The position numbers and the translations under genes were made by a program. Positions 17,201-52,820 of a stretch of 64,000 nucleotides of DNA are shown here, one piece after another. This DNA is from a virus. Within the stretch, counting starts at the first letter, position 1, and each line of letters starts with the position of its first letter. The notes beneath the pieces were generated by a model that saw only the letters and a program-made list of their open reading frames with translations, was not told the origin of the DNA and did no database searches. Location of the stretch: the IMG/VR virus record IMGVR_UViG_3300027708_000032, positions 62,001 to 126,000 of that record. One strand, given 5' to 3'.

Positions 17201-20200
17201 CAAAACGAGAAAGAAGTTTCTCCATCATCTTGATAGAGTCATAAACTATATTTAGTTTTTGTGTAAGAGCTTCTTGTTCTATTTCTACACCAAGAATAAC
17301 ATCATCTAATTTTTCTTCAGGTACTCTTGTACGTAATTGATTACCTTCTGCTTCATTTACAGCTTCTTGTTGTTCACCGTATATAGTTCCACTCTCATCT
17401 CTTAAGAATGGTTCTTTATTAGTTTCTAATTCAGCAAGACCTTCTGTATATACTTTCTTAGCTTCTTTTAAAGCTTCAAGTTCTTTTGTTACATCTGCTT
17501 TCTCTTGTTCAAGTTTAGCAGCTAGTTCTTTAGCAGCTTCTATCTTTCCAGGAAACTGAGCTATGATTTGGTTGTATTCTGTTCTTGCAGCATTAGCAAG
17601 CTTAGAACGTTTGGTTCTAAGGTCTGCAATATTTTCTTCAGCTATCTGAAGGATAACTTGCATGTCTTCTACACTCTGTCTAAGATCAGCTATTTGCTTA
17701 TCTATTTCTTCAGATCTCTTCTGACGTAAACCAACTTTGTTTTCTTGCTCCTGGATTAAAAACTTAAGAGCATCCAACTGCTGTTGATAAACTAAAGCCA
17801 CTCTTTGTTTACGAGCTAGCTCTTGAGCTTCAGCAACTGTAGGAAGAACATTTAATTCTAATGCAGCTTTACCACTAGCATCTTTCTGAGCATACTTTTT
17901 ATAATATGCCATGTTAAAATCTACACTGGTTTCTTTATTTGTAACAGGATTGGTGTATTTAAGTTTCAACACCCACTTGTCATTTTCTTTTACAAGATCT
18001 AGTCTAGCAGAAATAGTAATACTATTATTAGTATAATCTCTCTTAGCATGAACACCTGTTATGTTATGAAGTGTACCTGTAGTTTTACTAACATTTATTC
18101 TTAATATCTTATCTCTGTTTTCAAAATATATTTTTTGATCAGGTGTTAGTTTAGTAAAGTTTGTAATTTTACCAGCAAGTTCTGCAAACTCTTCCATCTG
18201 ATATGTTACAGATTCTGGATCATTGTTTACAGTGATGGTCACTGTATTACCTTCAACATCTATTTTATTAATTTTAATAATATCCTGATCATACGTAGTG
18301 TATATCTTTTTATCCTTACCCACTCTTTTTGTAGGAGTGGACTCTGTAATAAACTTATTACCTTCTATTAGTTCTACATCACTTTCTACACCATTCTTAT
18401 CTTTCACTTTAATAGTAACTCTTGTAGCATTTGGATTCTCAGCTTGTACTGTAGTAGCAACAGCTGCTGCTTCTCCTGTAAGACCTTTATCAGCTTCTGT
18501 TTTAGCTTTACGAGCTTCATCTATTGTATCAAACACTTCTATAAGAGATCCATCTGGATTATATAAAGCATGTACATCGTGTATACTAAGAATAAATGTT
18601 TTACCATCACCGATAGTTTTCTTAACATGTTCAGCACCAGCCATGCCAAGAAGTTCCATGTATGCTTTACTAGCTCCCATAGTCATTCTTTCATGAAGCT
18701 TCATAAAGTTCTCAGGATTGCTAAGCATGTTTATAGCTTCTACGTGAGAGTTATGCTTTTCATGTAGTTTTATATAATCTATAAAGTCTAAGAAATGATC
18801 TTCTGTATCTTGTTTATCTACAGATAACTCTCTACCGTTTTGTTTATTCTTAGATGCTAAGTATCCTGCAAAAGCTCTGTAAGATTTATCTACAACAGCT
18901 TCATTAAGAAGCTCACCTTTAGATGCTTTCCAGTCATTGATATGTTTAAGCTGTTCTTCTTTTATAGCAAGACTATCTTCAAGTTTTTGTCTGTCTTCTT
19001 TAGTAAGACCTTCTAACTTTAATTGTTCTTTGTTAAGTTTAATCTCTGCCGTTAGTACACCAACCTCAGCAGTCATGTTCGTTTCTGATCCCATGATATG
19101 GAATGCATCTGCAAGAGAAGCTCCTAAGTTTTTGTTAGATGAAACTTTACGGAATATGTTTGTAATACGATCAAGAGCATCTGTAGCTTTAAATTCATTA
19201 CTAGCCAAATGTTCTATCATATCATCTAGAACTTTCTTTTTTATTAGCTCATTCATGAAAGCTTTGGTTCCAGGTTTAAATCTGTTAGGGTTAAATTTAT
19301 TACCATAACGTTCCTGAAGTTTATTCCATGTCTTAGTATAAGAGTCTATAGCTCCTACCACTTTATCTGTGTAGTCTTCTACAGTCTTTTTATTTTCACT
19401 TGTATACTCTGCACCAACAAAAGCTTTTTCAAACTCTTCTTTGGTCATATGTTTACCATAAGAAGTAAGAGTATCTTTTAATCCTTCATAAGTATTATTA
19501 CGTATAGATGCAGCTATCATTTTATCAAGCATAGCTGTACGTATATTTTCATACACAAACTTATCTTGATTTTTAGCAGCAGCTTCTAAAGCAGTGGATC
19601 CTTCCTTTTGGAAGTTAAGATTTTTTACAGCTTCTTGGAATGCTGCAGATGGATCTTTAGCAAATGCATTAAACTCTGCATAGTGTTTACCAGCTGCTCC
19701 TTTTTGTGTTTCTTTATTTTTAAAGTATTCTGTCTTTTGTTCTGCAGTCATGCCAGAAGTTTTCTGCATGTCTGTTATCTTTTCACTACCATACTTTAAA
19801 GCTCTACCACCTAATGCAGTGGGACCATGTAATATAAGTCCTGTAAGAGCACCAGACATAAATGTCTTAACGCCCTGCATGTTAAGCTGTGATGCTACTG
19901 CTCTTTTAAAACTATCTCCTTCTGGTTGATAGTCAGGGTTAATAGATACGTTGTATGCATTACGATAGTAGTCTTGGAAGTATACATTAGAACCTTCTTG
20001 TAAAAGTTCTTGTATACCTTCAGTTATTTCCATCTTAGCCATACTTTTAAGAAGAGAAATACCAGCTACTTCAAATGCTTTTGCTTTTCCAAAATCAGCC
20101 GCTACTTTTTTAAATGCTCCTACACCACCTAATATTCCTGTTTCATAATAATGAGGAACAAGTTTATCAGTACCATTTAACCTACCTACCACTTTAATCC

Positions 20201-33100: not shown

Positions 33101-34759
33101 TCCTTTCTCATCATAATGTTTACCATCTATAGAATAATTTGTAATAGCAACTGGATTAATTGTTTGATTTCCACTTATTACAGAAGCTGAGTTATCAACA
33201 AAGTCATTAGCTGCTTTTGAATCAAATCCTTGTTTAACTAAATTTTCTTTATACTGCTCCGTAGTATATCTTTGAGAAGGAGTATTATTATATTTAGTAA
33301 CTCGTTTAGCAACTTTTGGTTTATCCTTATAAGATTTATCAGTATTTGCTAATCCAGCATTTTGATTAAAGTCAGTAACTGTTTTCTGATTAGCACTATT
33401 AAGATTAGCTTCTTGTATATTAAGTCTTGAATCAACTGCAGCATTAGTACTATCAGATGCAAGTTGTAGTCTTCTATTGTATTCATCTTCATCTGAAGTA
33501 ACAAAAGGAGCAGGTCTTAGTACACATTTTTTTGATAGAGTATCCCAATACATATTTGTTGGACATGGTCCTTGTCCACCATCATCCATTCTTTTTATAC
33601 CACCATACCTACCCATATCTAACGCCTGTGTACCATCATTCTTTACATACTTATTTAACATGTCTGCTATAACTTTTGGGTTATTTCCAAACTGCTTCAT
33701 CCATGTTTGTATAAGATATGGTGTATAGTTTTCTTTAGTATGGTCATTTATATATTTCTTATCACTATACTTATTTATATATGGCATAATATTTTTCTCA
33801 TCCCACACTTGTTTAGGATTAATACCCTCACTCATTCTAAACATATTTATTACACCAGATGGTTCTGGATTATTTTGTGTTCTCACTCTATCAGGATTTC
33901 CTGGGTCATATCCAGAAACACTTCTCCACCATGATAAAGGTTTACCTTTTTCATCAATATTTTTAACACGTTGCATACCCATCATCCAGTTACGCATAGA
34001 TGGTTCTAACCCTGCAACTTTAGCTGGAACAGGTCTAAAGAAACCTCTGTTCTCCTGTGGATTATTATAATCTAAAGCATGTGTATATTCATGAGCTATT
34101 ACTTCTGGAAGAATACCAAGACCATCAGCATTAAAGTTAGGATCCTTTGGATCTGTTAGATATATGTTTTTACCCCCCTCTACAGGAAAATATGCAATCT
34201 GATCATGAGCTTTATTATCAGAACCTGATGCAAACTTATAGTTTAAATCATTAAGAGTTTTTAATCTTGCTGTAGCTACATCTTTAAACTGAGGAAGTTC
34301 TGCTCTTCCTGTATACCAGTTCCTTAAAAACTCTTTGGCTTTAGCTTCATTTGCAACTACATCATCACCTGGTCCACCTTCATCAAACCTAGGCATACTA
34401 CCACCTTGTTGCATCTTAATCATTCCTCCACACTTATGACATGTCATAGGATCAGAGCCACCATCTACGGCTTTCCATGACCATCCACAATTAGAACATG
34501 TCACTGTTCTACTAAGAAGTCCTCCACCATTAGCCATTCTAGGAGGAGCATAACTATGATACTCAGGAAACATTCCACCACCAAACTTTTCTTTAGGTAA
34601 ACTGCTTTTAGCTTTACGAGTTATGTGGCTAGTCTTATCTTTATTAGCCTCTATAATCTGACTTAAATTAGGTTTACCATTTCTATCAACAGGTCCTCCC
34701 TTCTTAGCCTTAGGAAGCTTAGAATTATAAAAGTTTTGTAAGATAGAATCCTTTCTCAT
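30137..34759 (-). CDS. virion cargo protein with zinc ribbon and HExxH metallopeptidase motif (1540 aa)
   Basis: Three N-terminal elements are clear. KLPKAKKGG (residues 14-22) and SLPKEKFGGG (53-62) are two copies of an LPKxKxG motif. C88-x2-C91 and C107-x2-C110 form a zinc ribbon (CSNCGWSWK, then CHKCGG). H223-E-Y-T-H227 in VIAHEYTHALDY is a zincin active-site motif, so residues about 130-390 are probably a metallopeptidase. Two Cys hairpins (CPTNMYWDTLSKKCV near 398; CGPGFDRHPILGTCI near 1024) resemble those of the next cargo protein. A short Ala/Gly-rich hydrophobic segment near 1430 (VLGGIGLGMYGLNKLM) could contact membrane, and the end is Tyr-Gly-Gly rich. The stop shares a base with no downstream start; the start overlaps the muzzle gene's stop (TAATG). 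An ejection protein that opens or processes an envelope or virion target is inferred; the substrate is unknown. Confidence 0.7.
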   Translation of the reverse strand: MRKDSILQNFYNSKLPKAKKGGPVDRNGKPNLSQIIEANKDKTSHITRKAKSSLPKEKFGGGMFPEYHSYAPPRMANGGGLLSRTVTCSNCGWSWKAVDGGSDPMTCHKCGGMIKMQQGGSMPRFDEGGPGDDVVANEAKAKEFLRNWYTGRAELPQFKDVATARLKTLNDLNYKFASGSDNKAHDQIAYFPVEGGKNIYLTDPKDPNFNADGLGILPEVIAHEYTHALDYNNPQENRGFFRPVPAKVAGLEPSMRNWMMGMQRVKNIDEKGKPLSWWRSVSGYDPGNPDRVRTQNNPEPSGVINMFRMSEGINPKQVWDEKNIMPYINKYSDKKYINDHTKENYTPYLIQTWMKQFGNNPKVIADMLNKYVKNDGTQALDMGRYGGIKRMDDGGQGPCPTNMYWDTLSKKCVLRPAPFVTSDEDEYNRRLQLASDSTNAAVDSRLNIQEANLNSANQKTVTDFNQNAGLANTDKSYKDKPKVAKRVTKYNNTPSQRYTTEQYKENLVKQGFDSKAANDFVDNSASVISGNQTINPVAITNYSIDGKHYDEKGNLIDTSTFQYIPEFQEAKQEVKYKETPSKYSVTYSTPDGKQHTFPYIYDYETWKLINDRFVGSRAYRGSQEKGDKSEASTLLAGLTEEDFNNILNEEYIEGNTKPMDNLFDSKPTSSIASVEYVQANNKKYGGNAYTKKLDYFNPKFNEMGGRITTSAMNLRKYVNGGALCKDMFGNTIDCPPGYTAGSTVFATQSPNVSSSTSAGVPQRNAEMLNDLRFRQSVQNQASVGPARMQTLDEQRLNQQRKQQFVQNNPNTQLNDQNTIVGINPNRGFQGQPLTPNAKRFDKGLGHIARGLDAAYNLTGAGIGINALRNRLGKKVSTLALTEEEMAQAMAEGIDEAGSYGISPDQYRKMLQDQQLRQQSGKMVRGMEKNPSDQHPIDEWFRSSNSREFGDEMRGLMRKLGYEPTNPKDVENFRTFFNNRSGQLFLNNQKPVGYGQTLTNMFSNPMNKYGGSIDQYGPGGQTTDGCGPGFDRHPILGTCIPNGWNPPTQTQVGPTVQAAENMRRARMLNDVHEIAAKARYKQLQPNQQQATVGRSYGDEPWRQRQAAEIRRQEAMKNTELAQTFASLTPSGDINAGVIGANTFVNMTPGIGIIPASSRLATFVNSVGPNNPRKGENAYYSKDNSFGENALGALNFVGDIGMLGIGSPFKGLSAEPTPGVTQAGFNPIRGTKKLINKAYGAFDEMFGGSGDEVLFNNLENKPKPSNVTPEAEVSPRVERTYPFENQAEIVHNNNTYFVNKDNPTEIMMMEEGQRTLTHASEADIPKVQEKYSATLPKETTTPAKTEPVQQTTTPAQTSTPKPVSTLEENLNKARAQSDPTPPPSTTEKNTGQAAPATPPKKGNGFGQVVKPVLKGAGVLGGIGLGMYGLNKLMSNSAPPTKPFSNSPTNNVTPSDTNFYSNPTIDTSMNQYADTSGYAAPVNIDSSINAPLTPEEIRLALDTSGVPSHRYGGQRMRYGGYKFQNGGSISIEGLQNALNNIKI

Positions 34760-37700
34760 TATCTGTAAGATTGTAATGTTTTTTGGTTAGATATTTTAAA
34801 CAGCATCTTTACATCATTACTAATAGTTTTTCTAAGAAACACTCTGCTTACATTATGTCTAAACTTTTTACGTTGTAATGTATCCTTAGTATAATTAACA
34901 GCAGTGGGGTTTATGTTATATTGATAGCCATTTGCTTCTGTTATGAATAGTGGTACTTCAGCATTAGTATACTCACCACGGTCTTTTGTAATATCCCAGA
35001 ACTGGTTGAATCTGTATTTGTTTTCCTCTTTAGAGAACTGTATATCTATAGAGTCAAAGTTTATCTTAGGATACTGTAACAAAGCTAACGGATTATTCTT
35101 AGTTTTAATCTGTAAGTTAAGTATTCCTGATATCTGTTCAGAGTTGTATATTATAGCTTGGTCAAAGTTCTCATCTAGGATATGAAACTTATCTCTACAC
35201 TCATTCTTTATTTTATAAGCCTCTAGTAAGTATTCTATACTTCTCATAGAAACTACACTTTGTCCAGTGCTAGATACAAACTCTATTTCAAATGGATAGT
35301 CTACACCATAAAAGTTACAATAGCTAGTACATGTTACATTGTGTTTCCAAATGGTTCTGTTTTTTACAGACATAAAATGTTTCTTACCTGGAACTAAGAA
35401 TGTAGGTATCCAGTCATGGAAACTAATAAATGTTTGAGCTTTAGGATCATACGATATAGTCCAGCTAGCATCTTCAAAATATCTAGTGTCAGTGAACTGT
35501 ATCTGAGTTCCTTTATAGTAAAAGTTTCCATCATCGTCAAATGTATAATCAGATCTTAATGGTCTATAATCCTTCTTACTAAAGTATACTATTTCATTAG
35601 TATTATCATATATAGTTTGTACACCTACACCAGCTAATGGATTATCAAATAAAAGATAGTCAGGATATACTTTAAGAAGTTCTGATGGTAGATATCTTGC
35701 AAACCACCACTTCATTCCATTATTAGATATCTCAGCAAGTTTTCCCATGTAGTTAAATATCTTACCCTGGTTCTGACTCACCCAAAATACACCGTGCAAC
35801 GTATTAATAGCAGAAAATTTATTTTGACAAGATCCATATTCATAAGCATCATCTACATTTACTACAGATTGAAGCTGTTTATTATTATCAAACAGCTTAC
35901 CATCACCCACTGTAATCTTAGTGTTTGTACCATCCATCTGAAGTTCTTCTACACCCATGAAAGACATTGGGCTTGTATACCTCATCATAAATAAAGCACC
36001 CGTCTTGTTGATAGACTTTATAGAAGTTATTTCAGAATCAAAGTCATAATAGTTATTAGCTAAGAAAACTCTCCAACTATCTTTCTTAGACTCATACTGT
36101 TGTGGTAGAGAGTAGATGGCTCTTAATGGTTTGTATACATAACATGCTGCTTGTACTAATGGATCATAATCCCTTGGTAGTAAGTCTCCCCATGTTATAC
36201 CACTATTAAATAATTTAGAAATACTTAAAGAATAATCATACTTATAGTAGTTACCGTTTTTAATAACATCACTCCTAAACATAGAGTTAATATCTGTATA
36301 CCCGTATGGATCATAGTGACGCTTTCCTGTTTCATCTTCCCAATCTCTATATGCTAAGTTTATTTCACTCTCACAAAAGAAGTCTCTAACACCAGAATTA
36401 AAAAGATAGAAGTGTCCACTGTTTACATACCACTTATTAGTTTTAGTAGATTCGTTTACTGACTTATCTAAACTTCTATGTTCACTAGCTTGGTCTGCAA
36501 ACAAACCAATATATTCTATTGAGTTAATCCAGTATCTAGGATAGGGAAGATTAGGGTAGAGAGTGTAGTCAAACTGTGTACCATCAGGTTCATCCATTAA
36601 CCATTGTTTAAAAAAGAACATTGTGTTCTTTTCAGTAAATCTGTTTATATAGGTATCTCCACTAAAAAATACAGAAGAACTTACTCTAGCTGCTTTTATA
36701 GGAAAAGATGGTTGAATGCATTCAGATATAGAAAACTGTTTTACAGATTCAAGCTGGCCATACTGAGATCCTACAGCAAGCTTTAGTGCTCCATAATGAG
36801 ATGATATAGTGGATGTAATATTTCTATTTAATACAGCTGCAGATTGGCCCATGCTAAATCTACTAGTATCAGCAACAGTAGAGTTTTCAAATGTTCCATC
36901 TGTTCTAATAATTACATACTGGCTACGCATAACATTGTTAACCAAATAATCCTGCGTAAACTGATTAAGAGAAGAACCTACATATCCTGTATTAGTAACT
37001 TTTCTACGTCTGTTCCCTTCTACAGAACTTATCCCTGTATCATAAAATCCATGAGAGTTATATTGTGTAGCATATTGTCTATATGGTATAAGAGACAACA
37101 CCATATCTAACACTTGTTGCTTTTGAACTTTAGATCCAAAGAATGCACTATATGCTGTATTAAAAATAACGTTAGCTGCTGCAGCTGCAACTTGTAATGC
37201 TGTTCCCAATCCTCCTTGAACACCTTCAGCTAATACTTTACCAACACCTGTTTTAGTAGCAGGTAAATCTTTTTTTGAATTAGCTGATATAATTTTATTA
37301 TAATCACCAACAAGTGTAGCTGCTGCTTCTACCACTGTAATAGCTGTTACAAATACATCTATAATAGTATCAAGCTTATTACTTATCTGTTTAAACTTAG
37401 GATGTAAATAAGGTACAGAAAAACTACCTGTTGATGTACCACTAAGTTGTTGATAAAGCCTCACTTCATTTACATTAAGATAGACATTAGTAAATGTAAC
37501 TTCAGGACTATGAAAAGAAAATACATCTTTTCTGTATGTAGAAAGTTGAGATGATCTAGGATTATCATGAGCATCTCCGTTTAAACCATTTTGTTCTTCA
37601 GAAGTTAAGTATACATCTGGTCTAAGATCATTGTATGGATAGTTTTGGTATAGTCCTTTAACCGTATCATTCTCAGGAATTTTATATTCCCTCATGTTGT

Positions 37701-39336
37701 TAAACAACCCTTTGCCAAGAATGGACTTATTACCCTCACGAGAACCTCTGAGGATTTCGTAACCTATGATACTATCAATAGGATTACCATCTTGATCTAA
37801 AGGGTGACTAATATTATCAAACTGTACACCAAGTAATACTATAGTGTTGTTTATAGGATTGTATGTATTTAATATAGCATCCACTGTTTCATCAGGCATC
37901 TTATGATGTCTAATAGGTTTACCACAAAGATTACCCCATATATCAGGTCTGTCTGCAGGATAGAGTTCTTCACTCTGCCAATATCCCATAGCACCTGTAG
38001 CAACAACTACACCTCCGTCAGAAAGTGTACTAGTATTTCTATTTATAACATTAGCTGTGTTAGTAACCTGCCAGGTTTTTACTTGAACACCTGAAGACAT
38101 TTCAAAAGCATCTAACCCACTAGCATTAGTAATATCAGCGTTAGAAGATTTTCTACCTGGTATATGATAAGACTCTGAACGCTCACCTGTATTATATATC
38201 CATCTTATAAAAAAAGGATACTGCTCATCTCTCATGTATGCAGCATTGTTTCCTCCTTTTACATAATAGTCAGCAGGATATTCTACAGCCACCCATCTAG
38301 TTTTAATAAGGTTAGCTTGTTTTTGATAGTTGAACTTAAACTTACTATGAGTGCCCACTCTAATAAGATAGTTATTAACAGAATATATTGCATCTGTTTT
38401 TTCTATAGCTTGTGTTCTAAGAACAACTTCACTTAACGGTACAGCATAAAGTTCAGGATCCCATCTATCTACATAGATTGTACCCTGCACTGTAGAATAA
38501 TAACCTATACGTTTACATATAGTTTGAGAGTTTATATTACTTACTATAACAAGTTCAAACTCGTCAAACCTATCATCTATTTCTAAAATTTTAACTTCTA
38601 ATGCAGAGCTTACATTTTGATATGTAAATAATCCCTGCACTTCTGATAGTCCTATATAGTCTGTAACTCTCACTTTGTTTATAGTGTACGCTATAACAGC
38701 TTGGTAAGATCCATTAGGTAAACTACCTGTTACATTAGACTTGTTAAGTTTTATACAAGGATGTTTTATAAGTTGAGCCATTCTTATAGCTTCACAATCT
38801 AATGCCGTTGTATATGTTCTTTGTATACAACCTGCCACAACTTTATCAGTGTATTTAAATGGAACATTATCTATATCCATAGTTCTACTAGGATTAAGAG
38901 CATCATCCCAATAGATTATTCTTTCACAGTCATATCTGTATCTAAAAGCAGCTGTAATTAAGTGTGACCTTTTAAAGTTTAAACATGGGTCGTTTACAAT
39001 CTTAGTGTATGAACATTGTGACTCATCAAAGAGTCCTATTTCTGAACTAACGTCATCTGTAGTGAATACCACCCATTGATCATCATATGTATGAACACAC
39101 CCAATAAGATCATAAGGTAGAGTGATACATTTTATATTAGAAGGTTCATTTCCTATAACCCCTACTTGACCATCATGAGAGTTGTTTACAGCATTACGTG
39201 CATGCGTATATAATCCCTCTCCTACAAAGGTCTCGTTATAGTCCTTAAGCATACCTTTACTAAATGTATTAGTGGTACCGCTTTGGCTAGCTGTACTATC
39301 AGTAGTATCATCTGATGTTCTTCTTTTCTTAGCCAT
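34759..39336 (-). CDS. tail nozzle ('muzzle')/P22 gp10-like tail protein candidate (1525 aa)
   Basis: A long beta-rich protein without signal peptide. It opens with a low-complexity Thr/Ser tail, then GMLKDYNETFVGEGLYTHARNA and alternating strands of the kind seen in beta-propeller nozzle proteins (VGVIGNEPSN, VVFTTDDVSSEIGLFDE, VYFSKKDYRPL). One hydrophobic Ala/Val-rich stretch near residues 680-750 could form helices lining a channel. The position directly after the tail-ring candidates and before the cargo genes is where crAss-like genomes encode the large muzzle protein, related in role to P22 gp10 and the T7 nozzle gp12. Its function would be to close the tail and release DNA and cargo on contact. 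The start overlaps the zincin gene by 8 nt. The call rests on position, size and general fold impression, as no short diagnostic motif exists. Confidence 0.65.
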   Translation of the reverse strand: MAKKRRTSDDTTDSTASQSGTTNTFSKGMLKDYNETFVGEGLYTHARNAVNNSHDGQVGVIGNEPSNIKCITLPYDLIGCVHTYDDQWVVFTTDDVSSEIGLFDESQCSYTKIVNDPCLNFKRSHLITAAFRYRYDCERIIYWDDALNPSRTMDIDNVPFKYTDKVVAGCIQRTYTTALDCEAIRMAQLIKHPCIKLNKSNVTGSLPNGSYQAVIAYTINKVRVTDYIGLSEVQGLFTYQNVSSALEVKILEIDDRFDEFELVIVSNINSQTICKRIGYYSTVQGTIYVDRWDPELYAVPLSEVVLRTQAIEKTDAIYSVNNYLIRVGTHSKFKFNYQKQANLIKTRWVAVEYPADYYVKGGNNAAYMRDEQYPFFIRWIYNTGERSESYHIPGRKSSNADITNASGLDAFEMSSGVQVKTWQVTNTANVINRNTSTLSDGGVVVATGAMGYWQSEELYPADRPDIWGNLCGKPIRHHKMPDETVDAILNTYNPINNTIVLLGVQFDNISHPLDQDGNPIDSIIGYEILRGSREGNKSILGKGLFNNMREYKIPENDTVKGLYQNYPYNDLRPDVYLTSEEQNGLNGDAHDNPRSSQLSTYRKDVFSFHSPEVTFTNVYLNVNEVRLYQQLSGTSTGSFSVPYLHPKFKQISNKLDTIIDVFVTAITVVEAAATLVGDYNKIISANSKKDLPATKTGVGKVLAEGVQGGLGTALQVAAAAANVIFNTAYSAFFGSKVQKQQVLDMVLSLIPYRQYATQYNSHGFYDTGISSVEGNRRRKVTNTGYVGSSLNQFTQDYLVNNVMRSQYVIIRTDGTFENSTVADTSRFSMGQSAAVLNRNITSTISSHYGALKLAVGSQYGQLESVKQFSISECIQPSFPIKAARVSSSVFFSGDTYINRFTEKNTMFFFKQWLMDEPDGTQFDYTLYPNLPYPRYWINSIEYIGLFADQASEHRSLDKSVNESTKTNKWYVNSGHFYLFNSGVRDFFCESEINLAYRDWEDETGKRHYDPYGYTDINSMFRSDVIKNGNYYKYDYSLSISKLFNSGITWGDLLPRDYDPLVQAACYVYKPLRAIYSLPQQYESKKDSWRVFLANNYYDFDSEITSIKSINKTGALFMMRYTSPMSFMGVEELQMDGTNTKITVGDGKLFDNNKQLQSVVNVDDAYEYGSCQNKFSAINTLHGVFWVSQNQGKIFNYMGKLAEISNNGMKWWFARYLPSELLKVYPDYLLFDNPLAGVGVQTIYDNTNEIVYFSKKDYRPLRSDYTFDDDGNFYYKGTQIQFTDTRYFEDASWTISYDPKAQTFISFHDWIPTFLVPGKKHFMSVKNRTIWKHNVTCTSYCNFYGVDYPFEIEFVSSTGQSVVSMRSIEYLLEAYKIKNECRDKFHILDENFDQAIIYNSEQISGILNLQIKTKNNPLALLQYPKINFDSIDIQFSKEENKYRFNQFWDITKDRGEYTNAEVPLFITEANGYQYNINPTAVNYTKDTLQRKKFRHNVSRVFLRKTISNDVKMLFKISNQKTLQSYR

Positions 39337-43631: not shown

Positions 43632-43689
43632 CCCCAGCGTAGACACGCCAGGGATCTTGTTATTGGAGGAACCAACAAACCTCCTTTTT
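43632..43689. terminator. two hairpins in the spacer between the glycosyltransferase cassette and the neck/tail block
   Basis: Hairpin 1, read on the minus strand, is CCCTGGCGT / ACGCTGGGG (43632-43653) with a GUCU tetraloop. The nine pairs include two G-U wobbles that only work in the minus-strand RNA, showing that this is the transcribed direction. It is followed by ACUACUUUUAAUG, a weak terminator tail. Hairpin 2 is GGAGG (43665-43669) / CCTCC (43680-43684), followed on the plus strand by a long T-run, so it would terminate rightward, antisense transcription. This GC-rich patch stands out in an AT-rich genome and is probably a terminator or processing site. Confidence 0.5.
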
Positions 43690-44359
43690 ATTTTTTTTCT
43701 ATTTTTTCTTTATTCATTCTAGACCACACAGCATCAGGATATTTATTATCAATACTATCTAAATAATATTTTTCTTCTTCACTTATAGTAGCAGGATCTA
43801 TATACCAAGGAACATGTCTACATGCAAAGTCTCCACCTATTCTAACACTTTCATATCTATAACCTGCAGCTTTAGCATCAAATGAAAATGTCATATCTGT
43901 AACTGCTTTGTAAACATTTTCTTCTTCTGTTGGATACCAGCAAACAGATTGATGATGTGTAATATGTTTCTTTATATCGGTTTCAGGTACATCATCTAAT
44001 CTTAAAACAAGACTTGGTTTTCTATTATATTTCTTATAATAGTCCATCATTATTTCTTGCCAGTTAGATGGCATGTTAGGATTAAGCTCAAGGTCAGCAT
44101 CCGAGTATACATAAAAATCTTCTGTACATTTAGAAGCATGTCCACTATAAAAAAATGTCCATGGTCCTAAGTTATTCTGCTGCTTTATAATATTTACGTC
44201 ATCTTTTATTTCATCATACCATTTTAGCAATGGCGGATATGTAGAAGCATTATCTATTATGTTTATTTTAGCATTTCCATTTAACCTAAACAGATCCTCC
44301 ACCATCTTTTTAGTGGTGGTAAGCCTATTCATATTAGTTAAATATATTGGATAGTTCAT
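43688..44359 (-). CDS. GT2-like (GT-A fold) glycosyltransferase (223 aa)
   Basis: The N-terminus shows the nucleotide-sugar-binding start of GT-A enzymes (PIYLTNMNRL, then INIIDNASTYPPLLKWY at about 33-48 and NNLGPW at 62-67). The DxD motif is YSDADLEL with D87 and D89, which would bind the metal and UDP/GDP-sugar. The chain is shorter than most GT2 proteins, with a compact acceptor half (FACRHVPWY near 177-185). No membrane anchor is present, so the enzyme should act in the cytoplasm, where virions assemble. It is the last of four sugar-modification genes located after the Thr-rich appendage genes. Donor and acceptor are unknown. Confidence 0.75.
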   Translation of the reverse strand: MNYPIYLTNMNRLTTTKKMVEDLFRLNGNAKINIIDNASTYPPLLKWYDEIKDDVNIIKQQNNLGPWTFFYSGHASKCTEDFYVYSDADLELNPNMPSNWQEIMMDYYKKYNRKPSLVLRLDDVPETDIKKHITHHQSVCWYPTEEENVYKAVTDMTFSFDAKAAGYRYESVRIGGDFACRHVPWYIDPATISEEEKYYLDSIDNKYPDAVWSRMNKEKIEKK

Positions 44360-44366
44360 TATAAAT

Positions 44367-44906
44367 TTATTTTTTAAATAAAAATATTACATCATCATAC
44401 CTACCTTTAACACCTCTTAGATCTATTATTTCAAAAGGGTATCCAAGTTCTTCAAAATGTTTTTTATCTAAATCAACATTCTGAATATCTTCTACTATTA
44501 CCATACCACCTTCTAAAATATTAGGGTAAAACTTTTTTACAAAGTCTAACTGATCTTGTAACATATGAGAACCATCATCTAAAGCTATTTTAATTTTCAT
44601 ACCAGTTATTTCTTCTGAAGTAACTTTATTTATATCTTTTACAATATAATTAGTTCTGTTATTGAAAGTATTAGGTATTGCACTATCCATTATATCATAC
44701 CCATAAATAATAGCTTTAGTAAAATAATCTCCAAATAAACGGATACTACCTCCTTCTCTAACACCCACTTCTACAAAAACTATATCCTCATCTTTATAAG
44801 GTTTAAATAATTTTTCATAAGTTTCTAAATATGAATGAGCAGTGTTTTTATCTGTTTGATAATATGAATAACCTCTAGAATTAAACAGCTCAGTAAGTGT
44901 TTGCAT
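44367..44906 (-). CDS. class I SAM-dependent methyltransferase (179 aa)
   Basis: Motif I is VEVGVREGGS (45-54), the glycine-rich SAM-binding loop, followed by an acidic strand end in IIYGYDIMD (67-74) and a DDGSHMLQDQL motif (110-120), then GGMVIVEDI. This arrangement matches TylF/MycF-like and Methyltransf_24 enzymes, several of which O-methylate sugars using a metal near the DDGSH motif. The gene lies between two glycosyltransferases; its start overlaps the stop of the GT6 gene region by 17 nt. The best reading is an O-methyltransferase that caps or trims a glycan. Methylation of a small molecule or protein is possible. Confidence 0.8.
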   Translation of the reverse strand: MQTLTELFNSRGYSYYQTDKNTAHSYLETYEKLFKPYKDEDIVFVEVGVREGGSIRLFGDYFTKAIIYGYDIMDSAIPNTFNNRTNYIVKDINKVTSEEITGMKIKIALDDGSHMLQDQLDFVKKFYPNILEGGMVIVEDIQNVDLDKKHFEELGYPFEIIDLRGVKGRYDDVIFLFKK

Positions 44907-45672
44907 TATGTATGGTTTTTATATTTATAATTTTTCCATTAGCTATATCATATGTAGCATCTTTATGCAAAAGCATTTCTTGTTTAAGATGTTCAACATC
45001 TAGTTTAGTATTTCTAGTTTCACCTATTCCACCCTTATGACTTATTTCAAACGCAAACTTTTCACATGGTACCGTCATAGGAGGATTAAAATGAAAGTAG
45101 GTATTTATATAGCTCTCATCATTTACACCAGGTTCATACGGTATTTTCTTATCTTCTATCTGCCACTCTCTAAGAGTTTTGCAAAAGTCTACCACTCTAT
45201 CTTTCTTACCACCAAAGAATGCTCCATAGTGATATGTATATGGTAGTTTACTATCTAATGGTACATAAGCTTTAGACTTTTCAAACCTGTCAAAACCAGC
45301 ACCATTTTTTAACCAGTCTCTATTACCATAGTGTTCTCCACCTACCATGTCTCCAAGAAACCAATCTGCAGTAAAGTCTCTAGACACACTAGTATCAGCA
45401 TCAAAGTAGTAGAGATAATCACTATCACAATCTGCAAGATCTACTATGTTTCTAAACTTATCATTTGTAGCATCCACCCAACTAGTATGATGAGCAGGAT
45501 GATACTCTACCTTTATATCATCAGATATATAAGCAGCAGGATCTTCATCTGAAAAAAAGTAAAACTTAATTTCAGACTCTCCTTTATAATGATGCATAAA
45601 CTTTTTAATAAATCTAACCCCTAGAACGAAGTAGGAGTTAGTAGCTAGTATTACTATTCCTATTTTAGACAT
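44890..45672 (-). CDS. GT6-family (ABO blood-group type) glycosyltransferase (260 aa)
   Basis: Four features match GT6 enzymes: the DxD motif YYFDADTSV (D91, D93); FDRFEKSKAYVPLD (127-140), equivalent to the family's 'RRPxSxAYIP' segment; YHYGAFFGGKKDRV (147-160), equivalent to 'YYxGAFFGG'; and NDESYINTYF (184-193), equivalent to 'HDESHLNKYF'. GT6 enzymes are retaining alpha-1,3-galactosyl- or N-acetylgalactosaminyltransferases, including the human ABO enzymes. Bacterial relatives usually have NxN in place of DxD, so the intact DxD here is notable. At 260 residues it is a bare catalytic domain without stem or membrane anchor. Stop codon is TGA, unlike the TAA of nearly all genes here. It follows another glycosyltransferase by an overlapping start and precedes the methyltransferase. 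Specificity beyond the family is not claimed. Confidence 0.85.
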   Translation of the reverse strand: MSKIGIVILATNSYFVLGVRFIKKFMHHYKGESEIKFYFFSDEDPAAYISDDIKVEYHPAHHTSWVDATNDKFRNIVDLADCDSDYLYYFDADTSVSRDFTADWFLGDMVGGEHYGNRDWLKNGAGFDRFEKSKAYVPLDSKLPYTYHYGAFFGGKKDRVVDFCKTLREWQIEDKKIPYEPGVNDESYINTYFHFNPPMTVPCEKFAFEISHKGGIGETRNTKLDVEHLKQEMLLHKDATYDIANGKIINIKTIHNANTY

Positions 45673-46604: not shown

Positions 46605-48230
46605 TTAACAAGCTACATCAACTAATACAATACTTGCTCCACTTACTCCTCCAGCATCATCAAGGAATACTCCAGTAAATGTTATAACTCCTGGTGCAGT
46701 TATTTGTACACAAGTTGGTGTACCATTGGAATCTGTTAATATTACAGAACCATGAATATCAAAATTATTTATAGTTACTTCAAAATCATATAAACCATTA
46801 GGTAATGTAATAGTACCATCTTGTAATGATGTAAGAGGGTATGTTCCAGCATCTAATGGTAAAGGTAATCCTGAACCTAGATCAGTTATTGATAGTATTT
46901 CCATACCATAAGTAACATCTGAATTTTGAATATGCATTATAGTAACAGTAGGATTAACTGTAGTCGTTGTACTAGTGGTTGTTGTTATAGCAGGATCAGC
47001 TGTTGTTGTTGTCGTTGTAGTAGGCTCTACAGTTGTAGTTGTAGTTGTAGTAGGTTCTATAGTAGTGGTCGTTGTAGTAGGTTCTGCTGTTGTGGTTGTA
47101 GTAGTTGTAGGTATTTCAGTGGTAGTAGTTGTAGTAGTAGGAATATCCTGACATACATATTGTGTACCAACTGGAACACAATCTGGACCTTCTATAAATG
47201 AAGTAATACAATTTGCACCAATAAGTGGATTAGAACCACAAACTGTATAAGATCCTCCAGGAGGTAAACTTGGTACATATTGTAATATACCATTACAATC
47301 ATTATATTTAGCTGCAATTGGATCAGAATAAACAGCACATGTGTTAAAGAAGGTTATGCAATGACAGTTAGGAGCTGGATTAGGAGCAGGACAAGCTACA
47401 CCAGGTGTAACTGTAACACCAGCTATTGTAGGAATAGAATCTAAACAAGCACAGATTTCTGCTGTATTATTTAAAGGATCTCCAAGTACAACAACACCGT
47501 TAGGATCAGGTAGACCTGTCAAACAATCTGTAAATGGAACTGTTACATCAAAACCAGAATTGTTAGTAACAGTATATGTAGCACACTCACATAAGAATGG
47601 AGCAAATGGACTAGCTGTTGTTGTAGTAGTAGTGCTAGACGTAGTACTTGTTGTGCTAGTAGTTGTAGGACATAAATCTAATGCATTAACTACACCATTG
47701 ATCATTGTAACCACTCCTGGCTGACCACCAATAATATAATAACCATTTGGTACAAGTGTACAATCTGTAGTATCTCCATTATATATAACAGATCCATATG
47801 ATAAAGAAGAACCTTGTGCAGTTATACCTGTTAATGTATTTCCACCTGGATCAGCTAGATATTGGTTATATGCATTACAAGCATCTACAAGATTAGCATT
47901 AAAGCTTACACCATTTATAGCAGTATTAAAATTATAGGTAGTCAATCCTGTAGGTCTTACACATACAGTGGTAGTAGTTGTGGTGGTAGTTGTACAAGGG
48001 TCAAGCTGTGCAATAATAATATTAAGAATCTGTGTTACAGTGCTACCACTTGTTATACCATAACATGTTAAGTCTGGTCCATTGTATATAATACAATCAG
48101 ACTGATAAGCTTCTTCACATATTATAGCATCAGGGCACAACGTTGTTGTGGTTGTTGTTGTAGTACCCACCTTAGCTGGAGGACAACAACATGGTAAGTT
48201 ATAGTATGAATTATTGCAACCGCACGCCAT
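46605..48230 (-). CDS. Thr-rich (mucin-like) virion appendage protein (541 aa)
   Basis: Begins with a Cys-rich tag (MACGCNN, then CCCPP) and a short Thr run, followed by DCIIYNGPDLTC (45-56), a motif shared with two other appendage proteins in this block. The rest alternates small Cys-containing beta domains (for example DLC, CECAT, CHCIT, CVPVGTQYVC) with Thr tracts near 23-30, 83-89, 190-208 and 365-425, the longest built from repeats of the type EPTTTTTTT. The C-terminal 110 residues form a beta-rich globular domain ending ASIVLVDVAC. It is probably a fibre or surface protein whose linkers hold binding domains apart. The glycosyltransferase genes follow immediately. No enzymatic motif. Confidence 0.6.
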   Translation of the reverse strand: MACGCNNSYYNLPCCCPPAKVGTTTTTTTTLCPDAIICEEAYQSDCIIYNGPDLTCYGITSGSTVTQILNIIIAQLDPCTTTTTTTTTVCVRPTGLTTYNFNTAINGVSFNANLVDACNAYNQYLADPGGNTLTGITAQGSSLSYGSVIYNGDTTDCTLVPNGYYIIGGQPGVVTMINGVVNALDLCPTTTSTTSTTSSTTTTTTASPFAPFLCECATYTVTNNSGFDVTVPFTDCLTGLPDPNGVVVLGDPLNNTAEICACLDSIPTIAGVTVTPGVACPAPNPAPNCHCITFFNTCAVYSDPIAAKYNDCNGILQYVPSLPPGGSYTVCGSNPLIGANCITSFIEGPDCVPVGTQYVCQDIPTTTTTTTEIPTTTTTTTAEPTTTTTTIEPTTTTTTTVEPTTTTTTTADPAITTTTSTTTTVNPTVTIMHIQNSDVTYGMEILSITDLGSGLPLPLDAGTYPLTSLQDGTITLPNGLYDFEVTINNFDIHGSVILTDSNGTPTCVQITAPGVITFTGVFLDDAGGVSGASIVLVDVAC

Positions 48231-48250: not shown

Positions 48251-49108
48251 TTAAAAACAACTACCTAAATCTATTATTAAACCTGTAACATCAACTCTAT
48301 ATACAGTATCATATGAATCTAGTGACATTCTATATAAACCAGGATTTACTGGTGTACCATATGAATCTGCATATATATAACACCCTAGCCCTACTGTTTC
48401 ACAGTTACTATACACTTCATATTCTTGACCATAACAATCATACATATTAAAAGGAGATGGCCTACCTGTAGGAGATGTAGTAGTAGTTGTAGGTAGTGGT
48501 GTAATATCATTTATAACACCTGCTTTAATATTATAACAGTTAAAGCCATCTGAATAAGTACCATCTATTACTACACTTGTAAGATATGGATCAGCATATA
48601 ATGTATTACAAGGAGGATTTAGGGTTAATGAGAAACATCCTGAAGGTAAATAGTATGTTGTAGGATTGAGTAAAAACTCTTCTCCTGCTGTAATACAAGA
48701 TGTTGAATTAGTAGTTCCACCATACCCTAATAATATAGGAACACCAGGAGCAGTGGTTGTACTAGTCGTTGTACTAGTAGAAGTTGTGCTTGTAGTAGTT
48801 GGTTCTAGTGTTGTAGTACTTGTCGTTGTAGATGTTGTAATAGGTTCTAATGTAGTGGTAGTTGTAGTAGTAATGATATTTAAAAAGATGTCTAAACTAA
48901 CTGGACAATCTATAGCAGTAGATACCACTCTTATAGTAACAGCATCATTAGGTACATTAATAGATACAAACCCAGCCAAAAGCTGAGCTCTTGTAACACC
49001 TGTTTCAAAAGGACCTGTAACCACTCCTGTATTATCTAGAGAATAGAAGTTAAAGGGACCTGTTCCAGGACCTATTGTACTTACTGTTATGATTGCTGTT
49101 TGTGCCAT
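48251..49108 (-). CDS. Thr-rich (mucin-like) virion appendage protein (285 aa)
   Basis: An N-terminal beta domain of about 78 residues is followed by a long Thr/Ser tract (about 79-130, units such as LEPTTTSTT). A second Cys-containing domain follows (NSTSCITAGEEFLLNP, then SDGFNCYNIKAGV), then a short TTTTTS linker and a third small domain ending LIIDLGSCF. The second domain resembles a segment of the 541-aa neighbour (YYIIGGQPGVVTMINGVV), suggesting a shared repeat module. It lies between the other two Thr-rich genes with gaps of 10-20 nt. It is presumably a virion fibre or decoration protein; the linkers are candidate O-glycosylation regions. Confidence 0.6.
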   Translation of the reverse strand: MAQTAIITVSTIGPGTGPFNFYSLDNTGVVTGPFETGVTRAQLLAGFVSINVPNDAVTIRVVSTAIDCPVSLDIFLNIITTTTTTTLEPITTSTTTSTTTLEPTTTSTTSTSTTTSTTTAPGVPILLGYGGTTNSTSCITAGEEFLLNPTTYYLPSGCFSLTLNPPCNTLYADPYLTSVVIDGTYSDGFNCYNIKAGVINDITPLPTTTTTSPTGRPSPFNMYDCYGQEYEVYSNCETVGLGCYIYADSYGTPVNPGLYRMSLDSYDTVYRVDVTGLIIDLGSCF

Positions 49109-49118
49109 TTATATTCTA

Positions 49119-52100
49119 TTAAGGAGGACTAGTGGTTGTACTAGTGGTTGTTGTTGTTGGTAAATTAGAACAATTTTGTGTTATCACTGCACCACCAGAT
49201 ATTTCATATACTGTTGTATAAATTGCATTTCCTGTTATTCCAACTCCAGTATAACAACCATTAGCATCTAAAAGTGTTTCTATTTTATAATTATTTAAAG
49301 CATCTGCTGTATTAGTAATAGTAGCTCTATAAAAATGTCTATATGATCTAAGAAACTTTGAAACATTACCTGGATATGAATCACGACACCATCCTGTTGG
49401 AATAGTTGACGTACCAAAAACACTATAAATACTACCCCAAGTTGCTGCTACTATATAATCTTGTATCCATGCAAACATTGGATTTTGTAAAGTTGGAGCA
49501 GTAAAAGCCCATTGTATACCATATGATGAACCAGTAACTTTTATATATGTTGTGTAGCTATAAGCAGGACCTGATGTATTAATAGTGTTAGCACCATTAT
49601 GATCAGAAACTCCTAAAGTTCCACAATTAGTAGCAAGACCTGAACTTCCTGGACATAATGAAGGAGTAATATAACCATAAGCTATATTAGCAAGTGTTAA
49701 TGATATTGTTTTAGTAGCATTATCAAAGTTTACAAATGTTCCATAGTGAAAAATGAAATCTTTATTAATAATAGTATCACCAGGAGTGTTGGCTACTCTC
49801 ACTCTAAATACTACATATTTATAATAATCTATAGTAGTATTAGAAGGAAGAGTAAATGTTCTATTAGATGGATTATATCCAGGAACATGTATAGCCATTG
49901 CTGTAAAGTAGTCATTATAATATGAATCATAATCTGCCTGTTGACTAAATACATATGTATATGTTACGTTACCAGTAGTTCCTGTTTTACTAATAGTATA
50001 ACCACCTGCTGCTAATATATTAGTATTACCAGTATTTCCTACATTACTGCTTCCACAACTTGCTTGATTTCTTAAATAAGTCCTAATATTTAGTGTAGAA
50101 GATGTCCAAGTATATCCACCATATTGACCATCATAATATCCATAAACACCAATATATTTCATTAAATCTGATGAAGCATTAGTATCTTGGTTAGCACCAG
50201 TACCTGTTATAGCAGGATATTGAGCAAACTGCATATCTAATGTATATCTACAAGCATTAGTATCATATGCTAAAGTAGGATGACATACATCTAATATTGG
50301 TTTTGTATAATTTAAACTAAAGGATGCTAAACACTTCATAGATAAATCCCAGTTAGTATTAGCATTAGCAGGAGCATTATATGAAGCTGTTATTGTAATT
50401 TTTATATAATCACCAGGAGTATATGTAAAAGGTGTTAAATTAATTACATCTTTGTAACTTTCCCTTTTTACTAATTTAGGTGTTACTGTATAGTTATCAG
50501 TAGCATTATCAGTACCTATAACTAAATCATGCATTACAGTTTCAGTTGCACCACTTACATATGAAAACTTAAGTCTATCAGCTATGAGATAACCATTAAA
50601 AAAATACGCAAAATACTGTACAGTACCGTCTAGATCAAAGGCTATTGTCTTAGAAGCTTCTGAAGCTAACTGAGTACCATTTTGATAAGCTACTAAATGC
50701 GTATAGTTACCAGTAGTAACAGTACCATTAGTGCAATTAAAGTTTTGTACTAGTATAGGTGTAAGACATGTAGCAAGATCCGTTGCAGAGTTATATCCTG
50801 ATCTAGGAGTAGATGTATATGTAATACCACCTATTGTTGCATATCTAATAACTGGCACCCAATACCCTGCAATAACAGGAATAGTATTGGTTCCTGTAAG
50901 AGGATGAGCTGTACCAACTGCTGAACCAAACAATGCAGCACCAGCTGTTTTACCTGTTACAAATTGTACAGTACCTAATGGATCAGTTAATTGATCTTTT
51001 CTATACCAATCTATTACATAATCACTTATAATACATGCTCCTCCTACTGGAGAAAAAAGATCTCCTACATTAATAAAACCAATAGGATTTGGTTCTTGAC
51101 TAAGAAATGAAGGAGTACAATCTGTACACTTGTTAAAATTAGGTATAGTGGTGGTAGTACTAGTAGTGCTAGTAGTGGTACTAGTAGTGGATGTCGTACT
51201 TGTAGTAGACGTAGTACTAGTTGTAGTAGTAGGTGCTAACGTAGTAGTACTAGTAGTGGACGTTGTTGACGTAGTACTAGTTGTCGTTGGTCTAAGTGTT
51301 GTTGTACTAGTTGTACTAGTTGTGGACGTAGTACTACTTGTTGTACTCGTAGTACTAGTGGTGCTAGTAGTAGTAGGAGCCAATGTTGTGGTTGACGTAG
51401 TACTTGTCGTAGATGTCGTAGTAGGCGGTGCTGTAGTTGTACTTGTAGTAGATGTAGACGTTGTGCTAGTAGTAGTTGGTCTTGCTGTAGTCGTACTGGT
51501 GGTACTTGTGGTAGATGTAGTTGTTGTAGGAGGAATGGTTTGTATAGCACAAACATTATCTATAAACATATAATAAACACCATCCCCAGGTCTACTATCT
51601 ACACCATATATAGAAAGGTATCCATTTCCTGTACATGTTAATGTAACATCTACAAGAGTGTTACCTATAACATTCTGAATAGCACTAGCTGTTGTACCTG
51701 CATAAACTCTTATACTTTTATTATTTAAAAAACCAGAGTTTATAATAGTAAGATCTAATGTTATTCTATATGTAAATCCTACAGTTAATACATTTTGACC
51801 AATATAACCACCTGTTGTACCACCATTATAAGCAGCTCTACCTGCATCCCATACCCAATCAGATGTAGCAGCACTAGGAAGAGCAGTTTTACCTACTTCC
51901 CATTGTGATAAATCTGTATCAAAAGATGGGTTATTAAACTGGTTAATACAATTTCTAAGTGGGTTAAGAGTTGTACTAGTTGTTGTACTACTTGTTGTAG
52001 TAGGAGCAGCAGTGGTTGTGCTCGTGGTAGATGTTGTACTGGTACTAGATGTAGTTGAAGTACTACTAGTAGTAGTTATTGGAGCAGCTGTAGTTGTTGA

Positions 52101-52820
52101 TGTAGTGCTAGTAGTAGATGTTGTACTGGTTGTAGTAGGTGTAGTTATACAAGCAGCATCACCACAAAATCCCTTACGACCAGTTAAACCTAAAGGTGTA
52201 GGGTTTTCAAGATATGCTATTGTAGTTATAGACTGTGTACAAAAATCAATATACTCACCATAATTTAAAGTAACTAAAACTCTTCTATTATTACAATCTA
52301 CATATCTAAACGAATAACTAACACCTTCTAAATTACTACCATTAACCATTGTCCAACAACCACAAGGAGGTGCAGTGGTTGTAGATGTAGTGCTCGTTGT
52401 TGTTTCTGGTGGAGCCGTAGTAGTAGACGTGGTACTAGTAGATGTAGTGGATGTCGTTGTACTTGTAGTGCTTGTTGTACTTGTGGTACTAGTCGTACTG
52501 GTAGTGGATGTTGTAGATGTTGTGGTTGTCGTAGATGTTGTAGTAATATAATAAGTCTCGGCTGTACCACCTACCAACTGACAACAAACCTCTGGAGGAA
52601 AGTATACAGCAAGAATGTTTAGTAACACACTCATTAATGATTGACCATTAGTAACATTTATACATTCATGATCTGGTCCTGAATAAGTTACACAATCAAT
52701 ATCTGGCTTTTCTTCACATGGATCAATAGGCTGACAAGTAGTAAGTCCTGTAACACCTGGTGGTGTACAGAACATACATGGGTCACATGTTTTAGAAGCA
52801 GTATTACAATTACAAGCCAT
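49119..52820 (-). CDS. large Thr-rich (mucin-like) virion appendage protein (1233 aa)
   Basis: Starts MACNCN with clustered Cys residues, then DCVTYSGPDHEC (42-53), the motif also present in the 541- and 423-aa proteins. Four Thr/Ser blocks built from TST/STT units with periodic APP or APTT breaks lie near residues 93-155, 225-285, 428-560 and at the extreme C-terminus. They separate a Cys-containing small domain (about 160-220), a carbohydrate-binding-like beta domain (about 290-425, with FNNPSFDTDLSQWEVG and YIGQNV, an opening typical of jelly-roll CBM-type modules) and a large beta-rich C-terminal region (about 565-1215). The likely role is an adhesive fibre that recognises surface glycans. 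The repetitive DNA probably makes tract length variable. The CBM-like call is by pattern only. Confidence 0.65.
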   Translation of the reverse strand: MACNCNTASKTCDPCMFCTPPGVTGLTTCQPIDPCEEKPDIDCVTYSGPDHECINVTNGQSLMSVLLNILAVYFPPEVCCQLVGGTAETYYITTTSTTTTTSTTSTTSTTSTTSTTSTTSTTTSTTSTSTTSTTTAPPETTTSTTSTTTAPPCGCWTMVNGSNLEGVSYSFRYVDCNNRRVLVTLNYGEYIDFCTQSITTIAYLENPTPLGLTGRKGFCGDAACITTPTTTSTTSTTSTTSTTTAAPITTTSSTSTTSSTSTTSTTSTTTAAPTTTSSTTTSTTLNPLRNCINQFNNPSFDTDLSQWEVGKTALPSAATSDWVWDAGRAAYNGGTTGGYIGQNVLTVGFTYRITLDLTIINSGFLNNKSIRVYAGTTASAIQNVIGNTLVDVTLTCTGNGYLSIYGVDSRPGDGVYYMFIDNVCAIQTIPPTTTTSTTSTTSTTTARPTTTSTTSTSTTSTTTAPPTTTSTTSTTSTTTLAPTTTSTTSTTSTTSSTTSTTSTTSTTTLRPTTTSTTSTTSTTSTTTLAPTTTTSTTSTTSTTSTTSTTTSTTSTTTTIPNFNKCTDCTPSFLSQEPNPIGFINVGDLFSPVGGACIISDYVIDWYRKDQLTDPLGTVQFVTGKTAGAALFGSAVGTAHPLTGTNTIPVIAGYWVPVIRYATIGGITYTSTPRSGYNSATDLATCLTPILVQNFNCTNGTVTTGNYTHLVAYQNGTQLASEASKTIAFDLDGTVQYFAYFFNGYLIADRLKFSYVSGATETVMHDLVIGTDNATDNYTVTPKLVKRESYKDVINLTPFTYTPGDYIKITITASYNAPANANTNWDLSMKCLASFSLNYTKPILDVCHPTLAYDTNACRYTLDMQFAQYPAITGTGANQDTNASSDLMKYIGVYGYYDGQYGGYTWTSSTLNIRTYLRNQASCGSSNVGNTGNTNILAAGGYTISKTGTTGNVTYTYVFSQQADYDSYYNDYFTAMAIHVPGYNPSNRTFTLPSNTTIDYYKYVVFRVRVANTPGDTIINKDFIFHYGTFVNFDNATKTISLTLANIAYGYITPSLCPGSSGLATNCGTLGVSDHNGANTINTSGPAYSYTTYIKVTGSSYGIQWAFTAPTLQNPMFAWIQDYIVAATWGSIYSVFGTSTIPTGWCRDSYPGNVSKFLRSYRHFYRATITNTADALNNYKIETLLDANGCYTGVGITGNAIYTTVYEISGGAVITQNCSNLPTTTTTSTTTSPP
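51130..51530. repeat. low-complexity trinucleotide/hexanucleotide repeat encoding Thr/Ser tract
   Basis: On the plus strand this reads as many imperfect copies of GTAGTACTAGT- and GTTGTACTAG-like units; on the coding minus strand these give ACT/ACA/AGT codons for Thr and Ser. Synonymous codons are mixed, so the protein repeat is better conserved than the DNA repeat. Similar smaller blocks occur at about 52370-52545, 51975-52140, 48735-48870 and 46955-47145. These repeats are likely recombination or slippage hot spots. Confidence 0.85.

Follow-up and report, generated by a model that had tools for sequence, protein, structure and literature searches.

A GT6 glycosyltransferase of a crAss-like phage within a candidate cassette for glycosylation of threonine-rich virion proteins

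The locus and its phage

The human ABO blood group enzymes belong to glycosyltransferase family GT6, and a gene of this family on a phage genome raises the question of what its product would glycosylate. The gene examined here lies on a window of 64,000 nucleotides (positions 62,001 to 126,000 of IMG/VR record IMGVR_UViG_3300027708_000032, a linear entry of 128,065 bp), to which all coordinates below refer unless a locus is named. In the preliminary description of this DNA the gene was taken to belong to a crAss-like phage, and this was borne out by the terminase, which is closest to those of crAss-like phages (about 25% identity), by the portal (matching phrog_6547) and by a Crassvirus muzzle domain at 34759-39336 (PF25731, E 2.1e-30), features that mark members of Crassvirales. 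Both the portal and the major head protein match PHROGs so named. The window also holds an ORF of 5424 aa (5232-21506) and several further ORFs of more than 1000 aa, comparable in length to the large virion proteins or polymerases of crAss-like phages.

The GT6 gene and its neighbours lie among late genes, and the direction of reading is towards lower coordinates. In that order the genes are as follows.

49119..52820, minus strand: Thr-rich protein, 1233 aa, proposed acceptor; four tracts, 309 aa in tracts
48251..49108, minus strand: Thr-rich protein, 285 aa, proposed acceptor; 52 aa in one Thr/Ser tract
46605..48230, minus strand: mucin-like protein rich in Thr, 541 aa, proposed to accept a glycan; its Thr/Ser tracts amount to 124 aa
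45660..46577, minus strand: phrog_4417 protein, putative retaining GT-A glycosyltransferase, 305 aa; PHROG E 9.5e-71
44890..45672, minus strand: GT6 glycosyltransferase (the reported gene), 260 aa, ATG start; Pfam, PDB and fold
44367..44906, minus strand: class I methyltransferase-like protein, 179 aa; phrog_21658 methyltransferase, E 2.5e-16, and a weak match to Methyltransf_24
43688..44359, minus strand: GT2-like glycosyltransferase, 223 aa, closing the cassette; PF00535 at E 2.3e-4 and 21.5 bits, slightly short of the cut-off of 23.3

Assignment to family GT6

The ORF at 44890-45672 was found to be real, its location on the minus strand being a detail absent from the preliminary description. 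Its product scored 41.5 bits against the Pfam profile PF03414 (Glyco_transf_6; cut-off 25, E 9.5e-11), which places it inside GT6, and a PHROG search matched it to the phage family phrog_3317 ('glycosyltransferase'). Searches of the PDB returned the bacterial enzyme BoGT6a (E 1.7e-10 by sequence, 1.2e-37 with a profile) and the human ABO enzymes (about 7e-9 and 4.7e-32, respectively). An AlphaFold model for which 16 phage sequences were aligned (pLDDT 77.5, pTM 0.83) is poor at residues 211-219, in the C-terminal part. Comparison of this model with known structures, the human ABO and Bacteroides GT6 enzymes included, gave a GT-A fold nearest to GT6 structures, with human GTA/GTB at the top of the Foldseek results (E 3.5e-16) and BoGT6a at a TM-score of 0.72 on the target. 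The family motifs are preserved in 15 phage relatives of 54-76% identity. With motifs, profile, PDB matches, relatives and fold in agreement, the match to GT6 is not one of chance, and the gene is, by sequence and predicted structure, a new member of the family.

Catalytic motifs and the acceptor site

The GT6 blocks lie where the preliminary description had placed them (DAD at 91-93, SKAYVP at 133-138, YHYGAFFGG, and NDESYIN at 184-190). Residue numbers of the ABO enzymes were placed on their alignments with the window GT6. Two of the motifs were mapped to the DNA.

45394..45402, minus strand: DAD metal-site motif, GT6 residues 91-93; sequence, with D91 and D93 invariant in close relatives
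45115..45123, minus strand: Asn184-Asp185-Glu186; aligned with ABO His301-Asp302-Glu303

The DxD motif is thus intact, as had been claimed, and for this reason the enzyme is probably metal-dependent. Comparison of 95 GT6 sequences found DxD in 94, these being human ABO, one Babeliales enzyme and a remainder that is viral; the sole exception was BoGT6a with NxN. According to PMC3961637, NxN is found in the majority of bacterial GT6 enzymes and DxD in a few, which agrees with the preliminary description on the prevalence of NxN. As DxD was present in every viral GT6 found, it is the ordinary state for phage enzymes and does not discriminate between them.

On the donor side the usual features are kept: the catalytic-Glu block NDES (184-187) is intact, Glu186 occupies the position of the catalytic Glu (ABO Glu303), and H114 corresponds to ABO His233. 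The acceptor side is altered. The Trp-His that precedes Asp-Glu-Ser in ABO-type enzymes (Trp300-His301) is missing and is replaced by Val183-Asn184, Asn184 thus standing in for the acceptor-side His; Val-Asn is found in most of the clade of the window GT6, and ABO positions 266 and 268 are Tyr and Ala in that clade. Retention of the donor side together with change of the acceptor side argues against a literal ABO acceptor. In GT6 enzymes a Lys near the C-terminus also makes contact with the diphosphate. Residues K213 and R220, invariant in the close GT6 clade, may belong to this part of the donor site; the PDB alignments end near residue 208.

Relationship to cyanophage-type GT6 enzymes

A tree of 61 GT6 sequences (quick IQ-TREE run with SH-aLRT support) placed the window GT6 in a viral clade of 45 sequences, split at a support of 100 from a side consisting of cyanophage P-SSM2 and its kin, BoGT6a, ABO and a Babeliales enzyme. 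Within the latter side the order is unsure owing to long branches, while the split itself is clear. The preliminary description had grouped the window protein with the cyanophage homologue by its DxD motif; with bacterial and cyanophage sequences included, the tree puts P-SSM2 across the split, and DxD as a sign of cyanophage kinship was ruled out, being present in all viral GT6 enzymes found. The GT6 enzymes of P-SSM2 and P-SSM5 are likewise phage-encoded with DxD, but they are only 28.8% identical to the window GT6, belong to the separate clade and retain the WHDES acceptor motif, whose His is Asn in the window clade. Their gene is clustered with a GT11 fucosyltransferase and nucleotide-sugar epimerases, and P-SSM2 has no phrog_4417.

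Cyanophage-type GT6 genes (L024, L025, L081-L091) often lie near genes for a GT11 alpha-1,2-fucosyltransferase (HxRRGD motif) and for nucleotide-sugar dehydratases or epimerases. An ABO(H)-like glycan could be made by such a set, and with GT11 nearby a pathway of this kind would suit that clade better than the window. The Babeliales GT6 (L171, with DxD, 27% identical) was the only match, and a weak one, of a bacterial genome scan with narrow patterns. At two loci (L074:8001-9410, L078:3272-4714) GT6 was found to be fused to a C-terminal region resembling another glycosyltransferase (LILEDDxEY).

The phrog_4417 protein and the threonine-rich proteins

The gene directly upstream of GT6, the last 13 bp of which also form the start of GT6, encodes a member of phrog_4417, a family without functional annotation (unknown function in PHROG). 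Its AF2 model (pLDDT 96.9) has a GT-A fold with a DxD (D100, D102). Foldseek neighbours were WbbM, UGGT, LARGE1, LgtC, glycogenin and GlyE at TM-scores of about 0.4-0.56, values which give the fold class and not the family. All 60 phrog_4417 sequences compared have D100, D102, H251, G254 and K265, a set that resembles the DxD...His...Lys of GT8 enzymes such as LgtC. Pfam searches up to E 0.1 returned no match, that of GT8 included, and the PDB sequence search returned none; the protein looks like a GT-A enzyme from its model, and we do not file it as GT8. We propose it as the priming enzyme for the Thr tracts. Elsewhere, inspection by eye suggests fusions of phrog_4417, at L272:294-2291 with a region whose cysteine motifs are of radical SAM/SPASM-like type and at L097:8001-9557 with a further glycosyltransferase-like region.

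Strongly Thr-rich proteins (11-12 Thr in 15 residues) are encoded in the 128 kb record only by the three genes upstream of phrog_4417; the other ORFs of the record reach at most 7. The 541-aa protein has weak similarity to Pfam Mucin, below the cut-off, and the 1233-aa protein has a Thr-rich C-terminal end (NLPTTTTTSTTTSPP). An origin of the tracts as a DNA-repeat artefact is unlikely: all four Thr codons are used, as in the 541-aa protein, and are mixed with Ser codons, which indicates that Thr is retained at the protein level. A PHROG search gave no match for any of the three, and their presence in the virion is thus assumed from their position among the late genes. Downstream, the methyltransferase-like gene overlaps the GT6 end by 17 bp, and its product may methylate a glycan. 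The same cassette was also found in records with no muzzle match, some of which are fragments, and so seems to move between phage groups.

Association of phrog_4417 with threonine tracts across viruses

Eighty GT6 loci and 80 phrog_4417 loci were surveyed, with counts dereplicated, the rows still not being phylogenetically independent. In 58 of 77 dereplicated cases the gene just before phrog_4417 (-1) is Thr-rich, where random placement among the genes of the same loci would give 9.2, and a Thr-rich gene is never at +1 or +2 (0/78 and 0/75). Much stricter dereplication left 13 of 23 against an expected 2.5. For GT6 the association depended on its partner, as a Thr-rich gene lies at -2 in 11/16 cases with phrog_4417 nearby and in 2/32 without it; GT6 alone was thus ruled out as the Thr-tract enzyme. 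At L001 and L031, whose GT6 genes are nearest to that of the window in the tree (about 76% identical), neither phrog_4417 nor a Thr-rich gene adjoins GT6, and phrog_4417 was not found anywhere in the L001 record, which indicates that Thr tracts do not go with GT6 as such.

In nearly all close relatives phrog_4417 is immediately ahead of GT6. At locus L073 (7077-8753) the two are joined in a single ORF of 558 aa (phrog_4417 at 1-307, GT6 at 310-531), directly after the gene of a 2181-aa protein with Thr tracts. Genes for GT2, Gly_transf_sug, Caps_synth, FkbM methyltransferase and radical SAM proteins are common after phrog_4417, and given this variety GT6 seems to be one extender among several that can replace one another.

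The phrog_4417 family is common to crAss-like and other aquatic phages and to Gram-positive phages, in which it lies beside capsid or tail genes. The major capsid protein, the major tail protein or both end in poly-Thr in all eight Gram-positive phages with phrog_4417 (L027, L028, L030, L291, L292, L293, L295 and L296), as in phiFL1A (...GETTTTTKPTTTTTKPTTTTTTTQG), and in none of 12 homologous phages in which whole-record searches did not find it. The corresponding Fisher p of 8e-6 is no true probability, the phages being related and picked by availability. In the reverse direction, a scan for poly-Thr DNA found phrog_4417 adjoining in 8/52 testable loci, with mixed Pfam families downstream; a poly-Thr tract alone is therefore no predictor of phrog_4417, and tracts can be plain linkers too.

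A proposed pathway and its alternatives

The reading that we consider probable, on the basis of sequence and models, is that the window GT6 is a metal-dependent, retaining alpha-glycosyltransferase that acts second, after phrog_4417 has primed the Thr tracts, in a cassette for virion glycosylation. Late in infection the phage would make the three proteins that carry long Thr/Ser tracts, which are most likely exposed on the virion, as tail fibres or otherwise. The phrog_4417 protein, with its GT-A fold and GT8/GT24-like features, would place a first sugar on the Thr/Ser hydroxyls in the cytoplasm, using nucleotide sugars of the host, and GT6 would add an alpha-linked Gal or GalNAc to that sugar, at the 3-OH by family precedent. 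The GT2-like enzyme and the methyltransferase would then extend or cap the glycan, leaving the particle with a mucin-like brush of sugars. We infer the sugars, the linkage and the order of action in this scheme, as well as its benefit to the phage.

It is unlikely, though less so than the readings that follow, that GT6 instead acts on the surface polysaccharide of the host, be it LPS or capsule, perhaps as a barrier to superinfection, with the Thr-rich neighbours being due to phrog_4417 only. Enzymes of the same clade without phrog_4417 adjoin GDP-mannose dehydratase/epimerase, GT2 and GT11 genes, as in surface-polysaccharide loci, and L001 and L031 lack phrog_4417 nearby. In the window, by contrast, GT6 overlaps both phrog_4417 and the methyltransferase gene among late structural genes, no nucleotide-sugar pathway genes were recognised beside it with Pfam and PHROG, and the L073 fusion joins it to phrog_4417. 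That the enzyme makes ABO-like caps mimicking host or mucus antigens, as the preliminary description had suggested, is improbable. This suggestion draws on the GT6 family with its DxD, catalytic Glu and retained ABO His233 position, and on the A-antigen-like products of the bacterial homologue BoGT6a (PMC3961637), but most of the clade has Val-Asn in place of the acceptor Trp-His, and judging by the gene neighbourhood the acceptors would be Thr-rich proteins of the phage itself. GT11 (PF01531), which the cyanophage-type clade does pair with GT6, had no match in the 128 kb record, a weak negative since control genomes were equally silent and the record may be a fragment. At best, then, mimicry is weakly supported.

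We would give equally little weight to the reading that the Thr tracts are unmodified flexible linkers, with phrog_4417 linked to them otherwise, such as by hitch-hiking in hypervariable fibre regions. Most poly-Thr proteins from the unbiased DNA scan indeed have no adjoining phrog_4417, but this reading does not sit well with the strict -1 position of the Thr-rich gene (never +1 in 78 loci) or with tags that track phrog_4417 on homologous capsid and tail proteins. Least probable of all, and very much so, is glycosylation of phage DNA bases. Phage glycosyltransferases are known in DNA hypermodification (cited in PMC12619734), but no base-hydroxylating or hydroxymethylating gene was found among the proteins searched in the profiled part of the genome, and the association with Thr tracts would be left unexplained.

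Taking the virion-glycosylation reading across phages, we lean slightly towards the view that poly-Thr tracts and C-terminal poly-Thr tags serve on virion proteins as portable marks for glycosylation, which a previously unrecognised glycosyltransferase family, phrog_4417, would read, with outer sugars from add-ons such as GT6, giving phage-made mucin-like coats. This would provide a testable function for an unannotated family that many phages carry, cultured ones of Enterococcus (phiFL1A, VPE25), Lactobacillus (PLE3) and Chryseobacterium (MA9V-3) among them, and for poly-Thr stretches, which are common in phage proteins. A mucin-like coat could alter mucus or cell binding, protease resistance and immune recognition of phages, and the role of a blood-group-type enzyme would shift from host mimicry to virion decoration.

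Comparison with known systems

BoGT6a and human GTA/GTB share with the window GT6 the profile, fold, motif order and catalytic Glu, and the ABO enzymes also the DxD. They differ in their low identity (about 22-24% in structural alignment), in the NxN of BoGT6a and in the ABO Trp-His and positions 266/268, which are Val-Asn and Tyr/Ala in the window GT6.

In streptococcal serine-rich repeat adhesin loci, a gene for an adhesin with Ser/Thr tracts is followed by glycosyltransferase genes that build an O-glycan stepwise. The window has the same arrangement of a tract-protein gene and then a run of glycosyltransferases, and GlyE, an enzyme of the adhesin loci, is among the structural matches of phrog_4417; the adhesin loci, however, are bacterial and have another priming enzyme and a dedicated secretion system. 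Glycosylation of these adhesins is reviewed in PMC6973325.

The cassette appears to be a variant form of phage virion glycosylation, with the link between phrog_4417 and poly-Thr, and phage poly-Thr glycosylation as such, undescribed in the literature searched, in which subscription papers were sparsely covered. Mycobacteriophages carry glycans at the C-termini of capsid and tail-tube proteins, added by phage-encoded glycosyltransferases (Freeman 2023, as cited in PMC12619734). The window cassette differs in having Thr-rich fibre-like proteins and a GT6; the two systems are alike in the use of phage glycosyltransferases, and the C-terminal glycan sites of the mycobacteriophages match the sites of the poly-Thr tags of the Gram-positive phages described here.
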